Origin: Sphingomonas lacunae
GTDB lineage: Bacteria > Pseudomonadota > Alphaproteobacteria > Sphingomonadales > Sphingomonadaceae
Length of the DNA: 64,000 bases
Reading direction: 5' to 3'
NCBI RefSeq assembly: GCF_012979535.1
Contig: NZ_CP053015.1
Location: 124,001 to 188,000, forward strand
How positions within the stretch are numbered: position 1 is the stretch's first letter; every line of letters begins with the position of its first letter. The notes beneath the pieces were generated by a model. The model ran no database searches, was not told the origin of the DNA, and was given only the letters and a program-made list of their open reading frames with translations. Shown one piece after another: positions 22,062 to 36,637 of the stretch. The position numbers and the translations under genes were made by a program.

Positions 22062-23339
22062 CTACCCGGCGCGAGGCACTTGCTCGCGGCGCAGCGCAAT
22101 ACCCATGATGAGCAGCGCCGGCCAAGTCAGATAGGTCAGCACCTCCATATTCTCTCCGAAACTATAGAGAGCATAAACCAGGATCATCGACAGGCCGACC
22201 CGGCCAATGTCGCGCGTTACCGCCACGCGAAAGGTCACGAACAAAGTGACAGCCATGGGTATGGCAAAGGCCAACAAGCCGGCCAGTCCCTTGACGAAAA
22301 GCAGGCCATACCAGCTGTGGTGGCTGCCGATCGGCATATATTCGACCAGATGCGGTCCGCGTTCGACAACCCCATGGCCGAACCAATAGGCTTCATTCTC
22401 CCACCGTTCGATGGCAATCCGGCCCAAAGTCTCTCGCACCCGCGTTGAATCCGCACGGGCCCCGGCGAAATCCGCCTGAACCTGATTGGCAAGGTCAATC
22501 AGCGCAGGGGCGAACCACGCAGCCAGCAATATCGCTGGTGCGGCGACGAACCACACCCAGGCCTTTGACAATTTGGAAACAGCCCAAGACATCGGCCATA
22601 CCAGCAACAACGCGACCAAGGCCAATCGCGACTGTGACAACAGCCCGACAAGCAGTCCGGCAGAGACGCCCCAAGCCTTCCACCTGGGGTCCTTTTCCTC
22701 AAGCGCGCACAACAGATATATAACAGCCATCATCCCGGCTGCGGGCGACCATGGGGCAAAAAACTGCCAGCGCGGCGTCCCGACACCCGGTTCAAGGGTA
22801 TAGAGTATCACGGCGAAATATTCGTCGCCCGATCCCCCAACCACCTTCAGCGGCGAAACCCAAAGTTTGGAAGGCAAACCGGCAAAGGGGGCGACAAGAA
22901 AGATCGGCAGGATCAAGATCGTCTGTTTGCCCAACCGACAGATAGCCCGGTAAATCACTTCAGCCCGTATGCACAGGCACGCGCCTGCCAGCGGATACAA
23001 CGCAATCAGCGCCCAGCCTTTGGCCCAGCCAACACTGGATTTGATGGTCGGCCCGGTGCCAAGAGAGAAATTTCGGTGCCCGATCCACAAGATGATCAGC
23101 ATCGCCACCATACCGATCAGCCATACCAGGATCGGCCAGCTGATCGGCACCGGCCGTTCCCGGACAGGCAGAACATCTCCGAAGAAATAGGCCCGGGCCA
23201 CCAGCGCAGCCAAGATCCAGCCGAGAACCGGGCCAAGAATGTATAGCCCCCCGACAAGATACAGCCACCAGGTCGACGTGATCGCAAAGACGATCAGGCG
23301 TTCGGGAAGAATTTCCGGATCAGCGGCTGACGCAGCCAT
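22062..23339 (-). CDS. Polysaccharide polymerase/O-antigen ligase-like membrane protein (Wzy-like)
   Basis: A 425-residue integral membrane protein with about ten to twelve hydrophobic segments and one large periplasmic loop (about 270-330). That loop carries the RVRETLGRIAIERW and GHGVVERGPH...GSHHSWYG elements seen in O-antigen ligase and polymerase families. It overlaps the end of the upstream chain-length gene by 46 bp. As third gene of a Wza-Wzc-Wzy set it most likely polymerises an exported polysaccharide. Sequence conservation in this family is low, so polymerase versus ligase is open. Confidence 0.75.
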   Translation of the reverse strand: MAASAADPEILPERLIVFAITSTWWLYLVGGLYILGPVLGWILAALVARAYFFGDVLPVRERPVPISWPILVWLIGMVAMLIILWIGHRNFSLGTGPTIKSSVGWAKGWALIALYPLAGACLCIRAEVIYRAICRLGKQTILILPIFLVAPFAGLPSKLWVSPLKVVGGSGDEYFAVILYTLEPGVGTPRWQFFAPWSPAAGMMAVIYLLCALEEKDPRWKAWGVSAGLLVGLLSQSRLALVALLLVWPMSWAVSKLSKAWVWFVAAPAILLAAWFAPALIDLANQVQADFAGARADSTRVRETLGRIAIERWENEAYWFGHGVVERGPHLVEYMPIGSHHSWYGLLFVKGLAGLLAFAIPMAVTLFVTFRVAVTRDIGRVGLSMILVYALYSFGENMEVLTYLTWPALLIMGIALRREQVPRAG

Positions 23340-24706
23340 GTCAGAAGGAATCCCATGATGATGAGGATGGTGGCCGCTGTGGCTCCAGCGATCGCAATCA
23401 CCGTGGACGGGCTGGATGGGCCGCGCGGTAGCGATGGTTCTTCCAGCGTCTGGACCAGCGGATAGGACGCGAACGGATCCTGCTTGTTGGTGTCGACGCG
23501 CGCCAGCGCCGAGGAAAACACGGCTTCGGCGATTCGATGGTCGCGGGTCAAGTCAGCCAGCTCGGCTGCTTGGGTAACCAGCAAACCTGCCCTGCCCTGT
23601 TGCTGGGCAAGGTCTCCCCGAATTTCCCGAAGGGCCGCCGAAGTCCCTGCCCGCCGAATGTCTGCGGCAATCATGCCTTCGATGAGCGATGATCGTCCGT
23701 CCGAGACCGAAAGGTCCACCATGCGCAGCAATTGCTCGTCGCCAAGCCCCGTCAGCTCACGGCCTCGGCGGGCTAGCGCGGTGCGAAGCGTGTCGCGCTC
23801 GGCTTGCACCTGCGCCAGGTCGCCATGCCCCTCGCCCAGCGTAGCGGACTTCTGCTCCGCATCGGCGTCCAAAGCGGCATAGCGTTCCACCAGCCGTTGG
23901 AACATCGGGTCTGAACGCAACCGCAATGTGTTGTTACCCAGCGCAGTCCCGGCATTCAAAGCCGAGGAAAATCTAGAACTCTCGGCACTTTGTTGCCGCA
24001 AGGTCGTTCGCACTTCCCGTTCGCGATCGCGCAGGGAGTCTATCGCTGAGATGCGATTGTTGAACTGCTCCACAGACACCATGCCATGCTGCGCCTGAAA
24101 GGCGAGCAATGCCCGTTCGGTCTCCCGCACCTTGGCTTCCAGTTCCTGCAAATGCCGCGTATCGGCCTGTTCGCGCTTGGCGGCTTCATCCGCGCGAAGC
24201 CTGTCCAACTGCGTGAGAAAGGCTTGGCGCAGCGCGGTTGCTCGGCGTTGCGCCTGTTGGGGAGAGGCTCCAGCAATATCGATCTGGATCAGGTTGGTCT
24301 GATCGGTCAGCTCGACCTTTGGCCCAGGAAAAGCGTCCTCATTTTCCTTGAGTATCCGAGCGCTTTGACGAAGCGTGATGTCTGCCATCAGCAACCGCTT
24401 GTAATTCTCGGTCGGGCTTAGTGTCGTCGAGGAAAAGGCAGAAGCTGCCGAAGACTGGGCTTGGCCAATGCTCTCGACGTTCAACGTGCTGCCGGCGCCC
24501 GACCCAGGCAGGATCAGCGTAAAATGGCTGGTGTAACTTCGCGGAGCGAGCACAAGATAGGCCCCTGTAGCGGTCCACACCGCGATCAGCGCCGGTGCCA
24601 TGGCAACTACATAGCGCTTGTAACGGCCCGGAGAAGGCAGACCATCGCGAATGTACGTCCAGATGCGCAGCAGCCGCCGAGGCTTGGCGATCACTTCATG
24701 CCTCAT
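23294..24706 (-). CDS. Polysaccharide co-polymerase, Wzz/GumC-like, without kinase domain
   Basis: A 470-residue inner-membrane protein. One transmembrane helix lies near residues 33-53 and another near 435-458. Between them is a long periplasmic alpha-helical coiled-coil region (about 165-410, heptad-rich, with Arg/Glu/Gln). It ends just after the second helix with RQPLIRKFFPN and has no C-terminal Walker-type tyrosine kinase. This is the architecture of chain-length regulators that bridge to Wza-type channels. It starts 6 bp after the Wza-like gene stop. Confidence 0.85.
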   Translation of the reverse strand: MRHEVIAKPRRLLRIWTYIRDGLPSPGRYKRYVVAMAPALIAVWTATGAYLVLAPRSYTSHFTLILPGSGAGSTLNVESIGQAQSSAASAFSSTTLSPTENYKRLLMADITLRQSARILKENEDAFPGPKVELTDQTNLIQIDIAGASPQQAQRRATALRQAFLTQLDRLRADEAAKREQADTRHLQELEAKVRETERALLAFQAQHGMVSVEQFNNRISAIDSLRDREREVRTTLRQQSAESSRFSSALNAGTALGNNTLRLRSDPMFQRLVERYAALDADAEQKSATLGEGHGDLAQVQAERDTLRTALARRGRELTGLGDEQLLRMVDLSVSDGRSSLIEGMIAADIRRAGTSAALREIRGDLAQQQGRAGLLVTQAAELADLTRDHRIAEAVFSSALARVDTNKQDPFASYPLVQTLEEPSLPRGPSSPSTVIAIAGATAATILIIMGFLLTWLRQPLIRKFFPNA

Positions 24707-24711
24707 GGCTC

Positions 24712-25917
24712 TCAGTCCTTTACGCTGTTGAAAAGGACATACGGCGTGACAGAGGCGCTAACGGTGCTGATAACCTCACGCAGGTTCATTGCCATGCTGT
24801 CATAGCAGACGATGGAATCGCCAGGCATCAGATACGGGTCGTAGGCATCCCTGTCCGACCCGCGAACCAATCGTTCGACCGACCGGGAAATCACCACTGA
24901 CTGACCGGTAACCGGATTGCGCGAGATCAGGACTGCCGAACGCCCCGCGTTCATCGCTGACCCGCCAACACAGTTTGCCGAGACCAGTCCCTGCAAAAAC
25001 CGGGTTCCATATGGCAGGCTGGTCGATTCCGAGCCGATGGCGGAAGCACCATTACCCTGAGCCGGCCCCGAAAGATTGGACATGAATACACGGATCCCGG
25101 GAATGGTGATTGAAGAAGGCCGCACAAGTTCCGGCTGAAGGCATCCGACACTGCCGACGATGATCCTGTCGCCGGTCGCAAGAGCAACATCACTGACAGT
25201 GGTGCCATCAAGCGCACCGCGCATGTCCACACGCGCCCATTGACCGCCACGGATCAGCACAACGTCACTGATCGAAGCGTCCGGTCTGACACCGCCCGCT
25301 GCGCGCAATGCCGTGGAGAGCGTCCGGTTGACATTCAGATCACCCGAGGCAGGGTTGGCCACCATCATGGATCTGGTGTCGGCCTGCCGTTCCCCAACAC
25401 GGGCAATGCCACTGCCAAAGACAGCGCCGGTTACAGGAATAGGCAATCCAGCTTGTTCGACATGCTGCAGACGAATATTGCCAGTCACCGCCCTGACAAT
25501 GCCACGGTTCAGCAGCTCAGCCCGCAAGTCCCGCTCCAAAGCATCAACGGTCTTCCCGGCAGCCCTGACACGAATGCCTCCTGCCAACTCCATCATGCCG
25601 TTGCCCGAAACAATGTAACTGCCAGTGTATCGGGCAGTGTCGCCGGCGATAGTCAGTTGCAGCCTGTCCCCCTCCGCAACACTGTTCACCGCATTTGTCA
25701 GCGAATGCACTGGCACTTCCTGCAAACCGGCAACCTCCGCCGGAACGGGAGCGACCTGGCATTGAGGTGTCTCTGGCCTAAAACGCGCCTGCTGTTCCCG
25801 AGCATAGAGGCTACCCGGTGCATTGCGGGGTGTCTCCATCGTTGCACAGCCCGAGAGGAGCATAGCTGGTATCAGTATTGCCACCAACGCGGCTTTCGGC
25901 ATGAATGCGGTCATCAT
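24712..25917 (-). CDS. Polysaccharide export outer-membrane lipoprotein (Wza-like)
   Basis: A 401-residue lipoprotein with the lipobox LLSGCA (Cys at about 24). A Poly_export domain (VAEGDRLQLTIAGDTARYTGSYIVSGNGMMELAG, about 80-115) is followed by SLBB-like repeats (VTGAVFGSG...). It forms the outer-membrane channel for polysaccharide. An AGAGGA ribosome site precedes two consecutive ATG codons, and the second (25914) has slightly better spacing. It is the first gene of the leftward export operon, 36 bp downstream of the predicted sigma-54 start site. Confidence 0.9.
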   Translation of the reverse strand: MMTAFMPKAALVAILIPAMLLSGCATMETPRNAPGSLYAREQQARFRPETPQCQVAPVPAEVAGLQEVPVHSLTNAVNSVAEGDRLQLTIAGDTARYTGSYIVSGNGMMELAGGIRVRAAGKTVDALERDLRAELLNRGIVRAVTGNIRLQHVEQAGLPIPVTGAVFGSGIARVGERQADTRSMMVANPASGDLNVNRTLSTALRAAGGVRPDASISDVVLIRGGQWARVDMRGALDGTTVSDVALATGDRIIVGSVGCLQPELVRPSSITIPGIRVFMSNLSGPAQGNGASAIGSESTSLPYGTRFLQGLVSANCVGGSAMNAGRSAVLISRNPVTGQSVVISRSVERLVRGSDRDAYDPYLMPGDSIVCYDSMAMNLREVISTVSASVTPYVLFNSVKD

Positions 25918-25963: not shown

Positions 25964-25981
25964 AGCAATCGCCGTGCCAGA
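25964..25981 (-). promoter_or_regulatory. Sigma-54 (-24/-12) promoter for the polysaccharide export operon
   Basis: Read on the minus strand, the sequence is CTGGCACGGCGATTGCT, against the consensus TTGGCACG-N4-TTGCT. Only the first base deviates. The GG (25978-25977) and GC (25966-25965) lie exactly 12 bp apart, as RpoN requires. Predicted transcription start is about 25953, some 36 bp before the Wza-like start codon. Confidence 0.85.
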
Positions 25982-26010: not shown

Positions 26011-26106
26011 TTTCGCAAAATGCACCACCATTCCGGACCGTCCGTTTGCGTTTTGCAAAGGAATTGAATGGCAGAATGCAAACGCTCAGCGTTGCAATTC
26101 GCAAAT
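26011..26106. promoter_or_regulatory. Candidate enhancer (upstream activating) sites between the divergent sigma-54 promoters
   Basis: Several TTTGC/GCAAA half-sites cluster here: TTTCGCAAAATGCA at 26011-26024, TTTGCGTTTTGCAAA at 26045-26059, and CGCAAAT at 26100-26106. A near-palindrome, TGCAAACGCTCAGCGTTGCA, lies at 26077-26096. The dyad centre is about 87 bp upstream of the rightward start and about 134 bp upstream of the leftward one. These are normal distances for an NtrC-type activator. Assignment to the adjacent response regulator is inference. Confidence 0.55.
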
Positions 26107-26146: not shown

Positions 26147-26163
26147 TTGGCATGACGATTGCG
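26147..26163 (+). promoter_or_regulatory. Sigma-54 (-24/-12) promoter for the H-NOX/response-regulator operon
   Basis: TTGGCATGACGATTGCG matches the RpoN consensus TTGGCACG-N4-TTGCW, with the GG (26149-26150) and GC (26161-26162) 12 bp apart. The predicted start is about 26174, leaving a 5' leader of roughly 69 bases before the H-NOX ATG. Confidence 0.85.
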
Positions 26164-26242: not shown

Positions 26243-26794
26243 ATGAAGGGTATCATATTTGCCGAGCTGGTCCGCTTCATGGAAGAGACCCAATCGGCAG
26301 CTTTTGCAGACTCTGTCATTCGCGCTGCGGACATCCCCTCCGACGGGGCATACGGTGCGGCGAACAACTATCCCTCGAGTGAGGCGCTCAAACTGGTCGC
26401 CACTGCCTCGGAACACTCCGGCGTTCCCCAAGACGAACTATGTGTCTTATTTGGCCACTATCTCTTTCGTCGCTTCACTCTTCTCTATTCCTATCTCATT
26501 GAGGCCTATGAGACAGCCGAAGACTTGCTGATGCACATTGGCTCGCACATCCATGCCGACGTCTGCGTGCTGTATCCTGATGCCCGTCCGCCACAAGTGA
26601 GCCTGGTCAAGCTTTCAGACCAGACAATCGTGACCTATAGTTCCTATCGCCCGATGGCGATGATCGCACTCGGTTTGGTTCAGCAGTGCATGGTGCACTT
26701 CGGTGATCCCAGACAGGTGACGTGCGAAGTCACCAATAAAGGTCGTCAGGCAACCTTCGTGCTGGTGGAACCCGACCAGGAGGCAGCAGCGTGA
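26243..26794 (+). CDS. H-NOX (haem NO/O2-binding) sensor protein
   Basis: A 183-residue stand-alone H-NOX domain. The N-terminus MKGIIFAELVRFME is typical. The haem-propionate motif YxSxR is present as Y132-S134-R136, and H104 aligns with the proximal haem ligand (seven residues before the conserved YP of YPDARPP). Such proteins bind NO, and sometimes O2, through b-type haem and signal to a partner protein encoded nearby. Usual partners are histidine kinases or GGDEF/EAL proteins. Here the only partner is the downstream sigma-54 response regulator, which overlaps by 4 bp (ATGA-like coupling, GTG start). Confidence 0.92.
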   Translation: MKGIIFAELVRFMEETQSAAFADSVIRAADIPSDGAYGAANNYPSSEALKLVATASEHSGVPQDELCVLFGHYLFRRFTLLYSYLIEAYETAEDLLMHIGSHIHADVCVLYPDARPPQVSLVKLSDQTIVTYSSYRPMAMIALGLVQQCMVHFGDPRQVTCEVTNKGRQATFVLVEPDQEAAA

Positions 26795-28242
26795 CCCACG
26801 GCACTATTCTGGTTGTCGAGGATATAGCCTCTCTTGCCATGGCCTACGCAGCGCAGCTTGAGAGCGCCGGCTATGCTTGTGTGATAGCCGATTCAGGCGC
26901 AGCCGCAATCGCCGAACTGGACCGTCATGGCGACCGGATCAAAGGCATATTGCTCGACCTGCAACTCCCCGACACCGACGGCCTGGAATTGTTGCAGACC
27001 AATGGCGGCATTACATCGCGATGGCCGGTTGTCGTTGCAACAGCCGACGGTTCGATCAACCGCGCAATTGAAGCCATGCGTCTGGGTGCCTTTGATTTTC
27101 TGGTAAAGCCACTCGCTCCACAACGGCTGATAACTATCATGCGCAGCGCTGTGCAGCCGTTGGAGGCGCTCGCAACCCCTGCCCGAACACCGGTTCGCGC
27201 CGCTACCACCAACGGATTCATGGGCTTTGTCGGGATGTCGCCGCCAATGCTCGGCGTTTATCGCCAGATCGAAAATGTGGCACGAAGTCGCGCCACCGTC
27301 TTCATCACGGGCGAAAGCGGCACCGGCAAGGAAGTGTGCGCCGAGGCCATCCACAAGGCGAGCCCCCGGGGCGGAAAACCGTTCATTGCCATCAATTGCG
27401 GCGCCATCCCCGAAGACTTGCTGGAATCCGAATTGTTTGGCCATCTGAAAGGCAGTTTCACCGGCGCTGTCAGTGACCGGATCGGCGCCGTCCAAGCGGC
27501 TCAGGGCGGAACCCTGTTCCTCGACGAGATTTGCGAAATGGAGTTGAGATTGCAGGTCAAGCTGCTCCGTTTCCTGCAAACCGGGACCGTGCAAAGGGTC
27601 GGCTCCAACCGGACGGAGGATGTCGACGTGCGCATCATATGCGCCACCAACCGCGACCCGGAAGCGGAAGTCGCTGCGGGCCGGTTCCGCGAAGATCTGT
27701 ATTACCGGCTCGCTGTTGTGCCGATCGAACTGCCGCCACTGCGTGCAAGGGGACATGACATTGAACTGATTGCCAACACCTTCCTGCAACGCTTTGGCAA
27801 GGAAGAGGGCAAGAATTTCGACCGAATTACGCCGGAGTTCGCTCGGGGCCTCGCCAGTCACAAATGGCCGGGAAATGTCCGTGAACTGCAGAATCTGATC
27901 AGGCGGGCAGCCGTCATGTTTGAGGGCCCCGCTTTGCCCGAGGAAGCGCTGCCACGTATGGCGAGGCTGCCCCGTGAAAGCGCCGCCTTGTCGGCGGAGC
28001 CGGTTACCGGCCAAAGCCCCGCCTGCAAGGACCCAGCCGCTCCGGTTGCACCTTTGGCGACGGATGATTTGGCCGGGTTGCTGCGCGGTATGACCCTTGA
28101 TGACATCGAGCGATTGGTCGTTGAAACAGCGATCACAGACGCTGGAGGCAGCCTGCCGGCGGCGGCCCGCGCGCTGGGTGTCAGCCCGTCGACGCTGTAC
28201 CGCAAGCGCGAACGTTGGATCGAACAAGGGCTCGCCAGCTGA
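26791..28242 (+). CDS. Sigma-54-dependent response regulator (NtrC family)
   Basis: A 483-residue activator. The receiver domain (1-115) is intact: acidic pair E10-D11, phosphoacceptor D56, T84 and K106. The AAA+ domain has Walker A GESGTGKE (174-181), the sigma-54 contact loop as GSFTGA (221-226, usually GAFTGA), and Walker B TLFLDEI (241-247). A Fis-type helix-turn-helix closes the protein (about 440-475). The start is GTG, overlapping the H-NOX stop. No cognate histidine kinase is encoded in the window. The flanking -24/-12 promoters suggest that it controls its own operon and the polysaccharide genes. Confidence 0.93.
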   Translation: MTHGTILVVEDIASLAMAYAAQLESAGYACVIADSGAAAIAELDRHGDRIKGILLDLQLPDTDGLELLQTNGGITSRWPVVVATADGSINRAIEAMRLGAFDFLVKPLAPQRLITIMRSAVQPLEALATPARTPVRAATTNGFMGFVGMSPPMLGVYRQIENVARSRATVFITGESGTGKEVCAEAIHKASPRGGKPFIAINCGAIPEDLLESELFGHLKGSFTGAVSDRIGAVQAAQGGTLFLDEICEMELRLQVKLLRFLQTGTVQRVGSNRTEDVDVRIICATNRDPEAEVAAGRFREDLYYRLAVVPIELPPLRARGHDIELIANTFLQRFGKEEGKNFDRITPEFARGLASHKWPGNVRELQNLIRRAAVMFEGPALPEEALPRMARLPRESAALSAEPVTGQSPACKDPAAPVAPLATDDLAGLLRGMTLDDIERLVVETAITDAGGSLPAAARALGVSPSTLYRKRERWIEQGLAS

Positions 28243-34867: not shown

Positions 34868-36637
34868 GTGGCCAATCCGTCCGACGAGATGACAATCAAC
34901 ACGCCGGCAACGACGGAGTTGCAACCAACAGCAACCGATGACGCGCTGCCACGCCGTTTTGCTGACTTTACCACCATGGGCGAGGCGCTGGATTATGCGG
35001 CACAGGGAGAGCGCGGCCTGAACTTCCACGATCCCCGCGGCAAGCTGGCTCGTCCCTATCCCTATCGCGAGATGCGCGAGGACGCGCTCGCCATGGCCTA
35101 TCGCCTGATCGCCCATGGCATCAAGCCCGGCGACCGGATCGCGCTGGTGGCGGAAACGAGCCCGGAGTTCGCCGCACTATTTTTTGGCACCATCTATGCC
35201 GGGGCCTGGCCCGTCCCCTTGCCTTTGCCGACCAGCTTTGGCGGACGCGGCGCTTATGTCGACCAATTAGCAGTGCAGCTCTCCAGCTGCGCGCCGAACA
35301 TCCTTTTCTACCCGCCGGAAATTGCCGAGATGGGCGCCGACGCCGCTTCGGCCCAATCGGTCGAAGGCATTGCCTGGGATGACTTCATCGCCCGCCCGGC
35401 GACACCGGTCGCCCTGCCAAAGGCGAAAAGCGATGACATTGCCTATTTGCAGTATAGCAGTGGATCTACCCGCTTTCCGCACGGTGTGGCCGTGACCCAC
35501 CATGCGCTGTTGAACAATCTGGCAGCGCATTCGCACGGCATGCATGTGCAGCCGGGTGATCGCTGTGTTTCTTGGCTGCCCTGGTATCATGACATGGGCC
35601 TTGTCGGCTGCCTCCTCTCGCCGGTCGCCAACCAGGTGTCTGCCGACTATCTCAAGACAGAGGATTTCGCCCGTCGCCCGCTGGCCTGGCTGGACCTGAT
35701 CAGTCGCAACAAGGGGACCACCCTCTCCTATTCGCCGACCTTTGGCTATGAAATCTGCGCGCGCCGCGTGTCCAGCCAGACCCATGCGTCCGAACGGTTC
35801 GATCTGTCACGCTGGCGCGTGGCGGGCAATGGCGCGGACATGATTCGCCCCGATGTGATGCAGCGTTTTGTCGACACCTTCAGTGAAGCCGGTTTCAGCG
35901 CCAAGGCGTTCCTGCCGAGCTACGGCCTTGCCGAAGCGACGCTGGCGGTTTCGATAATGCCGCCGGGTGAGGGCATCGTTGTCGAACTGGTCGAAGAAAC
36001 CGAATTGTCGGGTGGCGACAGTCAGGGTGATCGGCCACAGCGGTTCCGCGCCATTGTCAATTGCGGCAAGGCCGCCCGCGACATGACCATCGAAATCCGC
36101 GACGAAGACGGCAATATCCTGCCCGATCGGCAAATCGGCAAGGTTTGGTGCACGGGTCCCAGCCTGATGGTCGGCTATTTCCGCGATGAAGAGGCTACCA
36201 AGGCATGTATGGCCGATGGCTGGCTCGACACGGGCGACATGGGATATCTGTCCGACGGCTATATTTACATCGTCGGTCGCGCCAAGGACATGATCATCAT
36301 CAATGGCAAGAACCATTGGCCGCAAGACATTGAATGGGCGGTGGAACAACTGCCGGGTTTCAAGTCGGGAGACATTGCCGCCTTTGCGATAACCACAAGT
36401 GGTGGCGAAGAAACCCCTGCCGTTCTGGTCCAGTGCCGCACCAGCGACACCAGCGAGCGGCAGCGTTTGCACAATGAAATCCGCGAACGGGTGCGATCGA
36501 TCACAGGGATGAACTGCATTGTCGAACTGGTCCCGCCACGGACATTGCCGCGCACCAGTTCAGGCAAGCTCAGCCGATCCAAGGCGCGCAGCCTGTATCT
36601 TTCAGGTGAAATCCAGCCCTATGAGCTGGCGGCCTGA
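34868..36637 (+). CDS. Fatty acyl-AMP ligase (FAAL), AMP-binding superfamily
   Basis: A 589-residue adenylate-forming enzyme expected to activate a fatty acid as acyl-AMP and pass it to an acyl carrier protein. It has YLQYSSGSTRFPHGVAVTH (P-loop), WLPWYHDMGLVG, the YGLAEATLAVS block, WLDTGDMGYLSDGYIYIVGRAKDMIIINGKNHWPQDIEWAVE, and the catalytic lysine in LPRTSSGKLSRSK. The HDMGLVG and NHWPQDIE signatures are those of FAALs rather than CoA ligases. The start is GTG behind GAAGGAG. No ACP or polyketide gene is adjacent, so the acceptor is unknown. Confidence 0.87.
   Translation: MANPSDEMTINTPATTELQPTATDDALPRRFADFTTMGEALDYAAQGERGLNFHDPRGKLARPYPYREMREDALAMAYRLIAHGIKPGDRIALVAETSPEFAALFFGTIYAGAWPVPLPLPTSFGGRGAYVDQLAVQLSSCAPNILFYPPEIAEMGADAASAQSVEGIAWDDFIARPATPVALPKAKSDDIAYLQYSSGSTRFPHGVAVTHHALLNNLAAHSHGMHVQPGDRCVSWLPWYHDMGLVGCLLSPVANQVSADYLKTEDFARRPLAWLDLISRNKGTTLSYSPTFGYEICARRVSSQTHASERFDLSRWRVAGNGADMIRPDVMQRFVDTFSEAGFSAKAFLPSYGLAEATLAVSIMPPGEGIVVELVEETELSGGDSQGDRPQRFRAIVNCGKAARDMTIEIRDEDGNILPDRQIGKVWCTGPSLMVGYFRDEEATKACMADGWLDTGDMGYLSDGYIYIVGRAKDMIIINGKNHWPQDIEWAVEQLPGFKSGDIAAFAITTSGGEETPAVLVQCRTSDTSERQRLHNEIRERVRSITGMNCIVELVPPRTLPRTSSGKLSRSKARSLYLSGEIQPYELAA

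Follow-up and report, generated by a model that had tools for sequence, protein, structure and literature searches.

The question raised by this locus is how a haem-based sensor passes its signal to a transcriptional regulator when no histidine kinase is encoded beside them. The stretch analysed, referred to as the window, comprises 64 kb (G000:C1:124001-188000, G000 being the window genome) of a single 2.98 Mb contig. Within it, an H-NOX gene runs into the gene of a sigma-54 response regulator, and none of the 25 HATPase_c matches in the genome was found inside the window span, in agreement with the statement of a sequence-only reading that the window encodes no kinase. A phosphorelay of three proteins is considered the likely context, with the H-NOX as its sensor, the regulator as its output and a kinase that would be unlinked in the window genome. 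The features that bear on this reading are collected in Table 1.

Table 1. Features of the H-NOX/regulator locus and of the unlinked kinase (window positions, except for the kinase, which is given in contig coordinates)
Feature	Position	Strand	Basis
EPS gene, polymerase/ligase-like (Wzy-like)	22062..23339	-	Conserved neighbour; name is our reading
EPS gene, chain-length-determinant-like (Wzz-like)	23294..24706	-	Conserved neighbour; name is our reading
EPS export gene (Wza-like)	24712..25917	-	Poly_export and SLBB_2 just under cut-off; conserved divergent neighbour
Putative sigma-54 promoter TGGCACGGCGATTGC, for the divergent EPS operon	25965..25979	-	Genome pattern match
LuxO-type palindrome TTGCGTTTTGCAA, putative enhancer site	26046..26058	+	Exact box
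Weaker LuxO-type site TGGCAGAATGCAA, 1 mismatch	26069..26081	+	23 bp from both exact sites
LuxO-type palindrome TTGCAATTCGCAA, putative enhancer site	26092..26104	+	Exact box
Putative sigma-54 promoter TGGCATGACGATTGC, for the H-NOX operon	26148..26162	+	Genome pattern match; conserved upstream of H-NOX
H-NOX (haem NO-binding sensor), 183 aa	26243..26794	+	Pfam HNOB, H104, YxSxR, 6bde
LuxO-like sigma-54 response regulator, 483 aa, GTG start	26791..28242	+	Pfam, NCBIfam LuxO model, 5ep0
Hybrid kinase P0003, 883 aa	C1:301417-304068		HisKA, HATPase, receiver, PAS_7, marginal HPt

The assignment of the sensor is supported by the following data. The HNOB domain scored 91.8 bits, above the curated Pfam cut-off of 25.5, and the best solved relative was 6bde (E 1.9e-21). 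Both the haem-ligand position H104 and the Y132-x-S134-x-R136 motif were intact. In an alignment of the H-NOX proteins of 29 relatives, classed by script as lying with a regulator and including L083 (a kinase between the two genes) and L113 (broken), H104 and Y132 were kept in 28 of the 29, with one gap each, and S134 and R136 in all 29. Position 141, counted from the YxSxR motif and presumably corresponding to the O2-binding Tyr of some H-NOX proteins, is Ile, which suggests selectivity for NO.

The start of the regulator overlaps the stop of the H-NOX by 4 bp, as GTGA, and its receiver, sigma-54 AAA+ and Fis-type HTH domains each scored above the Pfam cut-off, which confirmed the earlier description of an intact H-NOX overlapping a complete NtrC-type activator. 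The receiver residues E10, D56, T84 and K106 were the same in all 30 regulators aligned, that of the window among them; with the acidic residue, Asp, Thr and Lys of the receiver, the AAA+ domain and the Fis HTH, the protein is a sigma-54 (NtrC-type) response regulator. Its sigma-54-contacting loop reads GSFTGA, the usual form being GAFTGA. The best NCBIfam model was LuxO (NF041946, an equivalog model), and the best solved relative was the LuxO structure 5ep0 (E 3.9e-118); LuxO is the output of the H-NOX-HqsK-LuxU pathway of Vibrio harveyi and Vibrio parahaemolyticus. Filing the regulator as LuxO proper was rejected, as the model score of 514.3 bits is below the cut-off of 800. Among six other sigma-54 activators of the window genome, other models scored best for all six, and the four that were listed for the LuxO model reached 345 bits at most. 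Of the 11 HTH residues given as critical for LuxO in a passage of PMC11407668, the window regulator matched 7, and 28 of the 30 regulators scored, window included, matched 6 to 11, several of these residues being demanded by the anchor motif of the script itself.

H-NOX genes were present in 47 of 298 genomes sampled from the family. The window genome carries a second one, beside a hybrid kinase at C1:34490-36350, while each of the other 46 genomes has a single H-NOX gene, that of G211 being in two pieces; these 46 genomes and the second H-NOX of the window genome supplied 47 loci for comparison. An intact regulator frame directly followed the H-NOX, overlapping or touching it, in 27 of the 47 as well as in the window, and because of this recurrence the pairing of H-NOX and regulator is not due to chance. 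Four further arrangements were seen: both genes broken in L113 (G211), a kinase between H-NOX and regulator in L083, H-NOX adjoining a kinase at a distance from the regulator in L102 and L109, and a decayed locus in L112 (G130). In the remaining loci of the 47, no regulator of the window type was found beside the H-NOX.

The surroundings of the pair are conserved as well. Of the 28 intact pairs, counting that of the window, 24 had a Wza-like homologue as divergent neighbour, and wzz-like and wzy-like homologues came next in nearly all of those 24 loci. The window's Wza-like protein scored 26.9 bits for Poly_export (cut-off 28) and 24.9 bits for SLBB_2 (cut-off 27); the Wzz-like and Wzy-like proteins gave no Pfam match. 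A scan of a named genome collection yielded 130 confirmed H-NOX relatives, the best 80 of which were examined (L190-L269), some of them from genomes already present in the family sample. The regulator directly followed the H-NOX in 54 of the first 60 (L190-L249), with a divergent Wza-like gene in 43 of those 54, and the pair was found in none of the last 20 (L250-L269). The genera among the best 80 included Sphingorhabdus, Erythrobacter, Altererythrobacter, Qipengyuania, Novosphingobium and Polymorphobacter, among others; Kushneria phyllosphaerae (L241) and a Salinisphaera MAG (L238) were also among them. The full layout is seen in L270 and L274, in which a kinase, then wecG, flippase and two glycosyltransferase genes, and then wzy-wzz-wza lie divergent from hnoX-regulator, so that the whole EPS cluster, the pair and the kinase fall within about 15 kb.

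A degenerate box, TTGCRNNNYGCAA, was picked by eye on the window and from the known LuxO box, before it was tested on the relatives. It occurred in 21 exact copies in 24 wza/hnoX intergenic regions, two of them the window's, compared to an expectation of 0.31 and a maximum of 1 in 100 shuffles. Sites for sigma-54 were scored against the familiar -24/-12 consensus. Upstream of the H-NOX, all 24 loci had a site of at least 8/10 no more than 120 bp away, where 200 shuffles averaged 0.84 with a maximum of 4; facing wza, a score of 9/10 or better was reached in just 9 of the 24 (shuffle mean 0.57, maximum 3). The decayed locus L112, which was excluded from these 24-locus statistics, had neither a sigma-54 site of 8/10 nor an exact LuxO-type box. 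Many of the 21 exact boxes have the strict form of the LuxO enhancer box, given as TTGCAWWWTGCAA in passages of PMC10162802 and PMC11443567; the two exact boxes of the window are each one position off this form. Several loci carry the boxes in two or three copies at a spacing of about 22 bp. The boxes were rejected as informative on their own across the genome, where 19 exact sites were found compared to 9 for a reversed-pattern control, so that many would be due to chance. Within 3 kb of a TGGCAY-N5-TTGC site, exact boxes were found in the window genome only in the hnoX/wza intergenic region (81 and 56 bp). In the gap between wecG and the flippase gene of 18 genomes, counted with no shuffle control, a box with at most one mismatch was present in 13 and a sigma-54 site of at least 8/10 directed towards wecG in 13; the same gap in the window genome has one box with one mismatch and a 9/10 sigma-54 site.

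A candidate for the missing kinase was found about 149 kb from the pair. P0003 is a hybrid kinase with HisKA (65.0 bits), HATPase (84.0 bits) and a marginal HPt (24.0 bits, cut-off 24.6), and with an N-terminal region that we read as coiled-coil-like. It was the top match in the window genome for all three of the H-NOX-linked kinases of L083, L109 and L102. It has the N-terminal region and the HisKA/HATPase domains of an H-NOX-partner kinase of the HnoK type and is not encoded next to the H-NOX, although its counterparts are adjacent in some relatives. A 72-position profile of the N-terminal region (residues 10-82) gave one match among the kinase loci of the window genome, at E 2.9e-23, the next being at 0.36; some of these 3.3-kb loci are cut at the kinase N terminus, and the whole-genome probe search likewise found one kinase. 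P0003 is flanked by genes for a WecG/sugar transferase, a flippase-like polysaccharide protein and a family-2 glycosyltransferase. Since these are homologues of the other half of the EPS cluster, the window genome appears to have split one cluster into two halves. The assignment of P0003 as the probable partner in the window genome thus rests on its relatives.

The sequence-only reading had proposed a survey of the pair with a count of co-occurring kinases, and the count was run on the 298 family genomes, using the first 205 residues of the kinase as probe (E<1e-7; 12 weak matches at E 9e-6 to 9e-4 were left out) and a regulator threshold of E<=1e-110. The kinase was found in 31 genomes, the window-type regulator in 32, and both in 30 (Fisher p 1e-37, with kinship ignored). 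The two genomes with a regulator and no probe-detected kinase were G082, which is 66% complete, and G204, which retains the EPS genes and the regulator and has neither H-NOX nor probe-detected kinase. The one kinase without an intact regulator was that of G130, where H-NOX and regulator have decayed. In 28 of the 30 genomes with both, the kinase lies no more than 13 kb from the H-NOX, either adjacent to it or separated from it by the EPS cluster; the two unlinked cases are G097, with the kinase on another contig, and the window genome. In G236 and G020 the H-NOX adjoins the kinase, with the EPS cluster between them and a solitary regulator. The claim that the regulator has no histidine kinase was accordingly an artefact of the window: it holds for these 64 kb only, and was rejected for the genome, in which P0003 lies elsewhere.

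A sample of 396 genomes from the order, overlapping the family sample, extended these counts (kinase threshold E<=1e-6). The kinase was found in 29, all with the regulator, and a regulator homologue in 82, comprising 33 of the window's family and 49 of other families (44-58% identity). H-NOX was found in 12 of these 49 and not in the other 37, and since the regulator is present in those 37, this regulator type evidently works also without H-NOX. Four in-family genomes had the regulator and no probe-detected kinase (G439, G496, G508 and G558). A different hybrid kinase frame lies directly downstream of the regulator in G496 and G508; no H-NOX was found in G439 or G508, and G496 has two H-NOX genes, both on other contigs. 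G558 has the H-NOX/regulator pair and no partner kinase, by probe or in the surrounding 19 kb. It follows from G558 and G496 that the H-NOX does not track the kinase perfectly.

Twelve other-family genomes contain an H-NOX as well as the regulator homologue, and 11 of them were inspected, G302 being the exception. Eight have the order hnoX-kinase-regulator (G301, G313, G339, G352, G362, G335, G360 and G341) and three have rearranged forms, namely regulator-hnoX-kinase in G343, a divergent form, present twice, in G326 and a module beside wzy-wzz-wza in G318. The kinases of all 11 carry the N-terminal signature, with a profile E of 4e-7 or better. The 205-residue probe had missed the kinases of the other-family hnoX-kinase-regulator loci, which were found with the profile. 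Among the 20 most distant loci, searched with the profile in preselected kinase-like frames, 15 had an H-NOX-adjacent kinase that matched (E 3e-12 to 6e-7), matches were weaker in L250, L255 and L264, and the kinase-like frames of L265 and L268 gave no support. The distant loci that bear the signature include members of the Bacteroidota, Planctomycetota and Verrucomicrobia as well as Limnobacter, Micavibrio, Mameliella and Maliponia.

These data bear differently on three other explanations. The H-NOX could theoretically act directly on the regulator, at its receiver or AAA+ domain, with no kinase involved. The genes overlap or touch in 27 relatives, HATPase was undetected in 19 of the 20 Erythrobacter-type partner proteins described below, and no partner kinase was found for the pair of G558, as noted above. 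Direct action is nevertheless deemed decidedly unlikely, as E10, D56, T84 and K106 are invariant, as in a regulator that is phosphorylated, H-NOX and regulator are apart in G236 and G020 with the kinase on the H-NOX side, and another family has H-NOX-kinase-regulator operons. The sequence-only reading had allowed for both this direct route and a distant kinase. The latter gained good sequence support from the partner N terminus of P0003 and from the kinase in 30 of 32 regulator genomes, and the former is disfavoured. The linkage of the two genes, on which that reading depended, held in 27 of 47 other family loci and failed in G236 and G020, which weakens the direct route further.

A different cognate kinase, such as the hybrid kinase of the second H-NOX at C1:34490-36350, with cross-talk between two H-NOX systems, is also unlikely. 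That kinase directly adjoins an H-NOX in the window genome; it was rejected as the partner because it lacks the N-terminal signature, failing the profile at E<10, and it was outside the five best matches of the L083, L109 and L102 kinases, P0003 being first for all of them. Cross-talk would also have to contend with the single H-NOX gene of each of the other 46 family genomes. The remaining explanation is that H-NOX and regulator share an operon since both serve EPS control, and signal separately, the regulator being phosphorylated by other kinases. Such a separation would fit G204 and G508, which have regulator and EPS genes and no H-NOX, G508 with its different hybrid kinase directly downstream, and would fit the 37 of 49 other-family genomes. 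It would leave unexplained why a kinase with an H-NOX-partner N terminus accompanies the regulator in 30 of 32 genomes and why three-gene operons exist, and is regarded as highly improbable.

Under the three-protein phosphorelay that we favour, binding of NO to the H-NOX haem would alter the output of the kinase via the kinase N-terminal region. The kinase would phosphorylate D56 of the regulator, directly or through its receiver and HPt domains, and the phosphorylated regulator would bind the boxes and activate sigma-54 transcription of both the EPS genes and its own hnoX-regulator operon. The circuit probably controls the bacterial coat (EPS), and NO would thereby act as an on/off switch for the coat or biofilm matrix.

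Vibrios already offer the parts and the logic of such a circuit. Among described systems, V. fischeri HnoX-HahK-(SypF/LuxU)-SypG-syp comes closest, judged by its description in passages of the cited papers. Passages of PMC12369376 describe V. fischeri HnoX-HahK-SypG and V. harveyi HnoX-HqsK-LuxU; HnoX inhibits HahK, NO inhibits biofilm formation in an HnoX-dependent manner, and SypG drives the syp polysaccharide locus (PMC12369376 and, in part, PMC10162802). The proposal that the locus would represent a new route from NO/O2 sensing to sigma-54 transcription does not hold as such, since an H-NOX-kinase-sigma-54 regulator pathway is already described there for V. fischeri (PMC12369376). In common with that account, the circuit proposed here runs from an H-NOX through a hybrid kinase under its control to a sigma-54 response regulator, by which a polysaccharide cluster is activated. 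Unlike the V. fischeri system, it is alphaproteobacterial and has hnoX in an operon with the regulator and not with the kinase (window and 27 relatives), and P0003 has a marginal HPt of its own, whereas HahK is described as relaying through SypF or LuxU. The V. harveyi / V. parahaemolyticus H-NOX-HqsK-LuxU-LuxO pathway is similar in the step from H-NOX to kinase (passages of PMC12369376) and in the box type TTGCAWWWTGCAA (passages of PMC10162802 and PMC11443567), and differs in that the present regulator is under the LuxO equivalog cut-off and its targets are apparently EPS genes.

Two other systems share fewer features. A passage of PMC8738867 lists, as partner of the Saccharophagus degradans H-NOX SDE_3557, the kinase SDE_3803, which is also listed for the H-NOX SDE_3804. 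The likeness is that the partner of one H-NOX is the kinase listed for another; unlike the window, that passage mentions no sigma-54 regulator or EPS cluster. Caulobacter crescentus H-NOX (CC2992)-HnoK (CC2993), from a passage of PMC10746521, is likewise an alphaproteobacterial H-NOX with a histidine kinase, but the two genes are adjacent, unlike the window, and no sigma-54 regulator is named there as a partner. Among the matches listed in open-access literature on H-NOX with sphingomonads, exopolysaccharide, LuxO or NtrC, none was recognised as dealing with this locus. New are the lineage, an EPS target with LuxO-type boxes, the placing of H-NOX in one operon with the regulator rather than with the kinase, and the partners without HATPase. 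A LuxO-type regulator with its boxes, familiar from quorum sensing and symbiosis in vibrios, is now found beside an NO-type sensor in Sphingomonadales. With the exopolysaccharide cluster named as the likely target, NO control of the sphingomonad biofilm matrix becomes directly testable. The case also illustrates that an unlinked kinase can be assigned from relatives when one genome has split a conserved cluster.

The partner proteins themselves fall into two sets. Thirty were scanned, from 29 relatives and P0003, with that of G203, which has an in-frame TAG, left out. HATPase_c was undetected in 19 of the 30 and weak in one more (E 0.0013): it was found in 10 of 10 members of the set that includes P0003 versus 1 of 20, weakly, in an Erythrobacter-like set, which includes a protein from the decayed locus of G130 and three frames that are cut or nearly cut (L282, L283 and L292). 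These 20 had HisKA in 19, a receiver in 19 and HPt in 15, and HPt was found in 2 of the 10 HATPase-bearing partners. Proteins with no detected HATPase domain cannot be normal kinases, and H-NOX partners that are apparently kinase-dead are thus brought to light. In this set the H-NOX may act through a kinase-dead scaffold. More specifically, and as a tentative suggestion to which we give somewhat less than even weight, the H-NOX of the Erythrobacter-like half of the family would gate a phosphotransfer scaffold rather than a kinase, one that kept the N terminus, PAS, phospho-His, receiver and mostly the HPt and lost the ATPase, the intact kinase of the window genome being ancestral. The H-NOX would then steer the flow of phosphate, or dephosphorylation, between another kinase and the LuxO-like regulator. 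In a few of the 27 pair relatives the partner protein, too, is encoded in this operon, ahead of hnoX-regulator. In some operons (L206, L223, L224, L231, L233 and L237), an HATPase match was found in a second and larger upstream frame.

The HATPase domain was undetected in 19 of the 20 H-NOX partner proteins of the Erythrobacter-like set (L282-L301, alignment A3). HisKA was kept in 19/20 of these proteins and the receiver in 19/20, while HPt was present in 15/20. In Novosphingobium (L243, L245, L246 and L248), a tandem of two H-NOX-like frames was observed ahead of the partner kinase.

At the regulator loci L344 (genome G496) and L347 (G508), the EPS cluster was still found beside the regulator, and a frame of 1154-1221 aa with a HATPase match was located immediately 3' of it. 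These downstream frames lacked the partner signature, and the input of the regulator appears to have been swapped. The H-NOX-regulator-EPS arrangement was also observed in gammaproteobacterial records, namely, Kushneria phyllosphaerae (L241) and a Salinisphaera MAG (L238), which may reflect transfer between lineages or, for the latter record, mis-binning.

The S. lacunae genome encodes a second, divergent H-NOX (L001, L079), followed by a 435-aa hybrid kinase that was without the N-terminal partner signature. This pair is an H-NOX system separate from that of the window.

Coordinates of features in the S. lacunae genome
Feature	Coordinates	Remark
Sigma-54 response regulator	window 26791-28242	sigma-54-contacting loop at residues 221-226
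AMP-binding (acyl-AMP ligase-like) protein	window 34868-36637	downstream; not assigned to the EPS system
Second H-NOX and hybrid kinase	G000:C1:34490-36350	outside the window

The loop of the window regulator reads GSFTGA, the usual form being GAFTGA.
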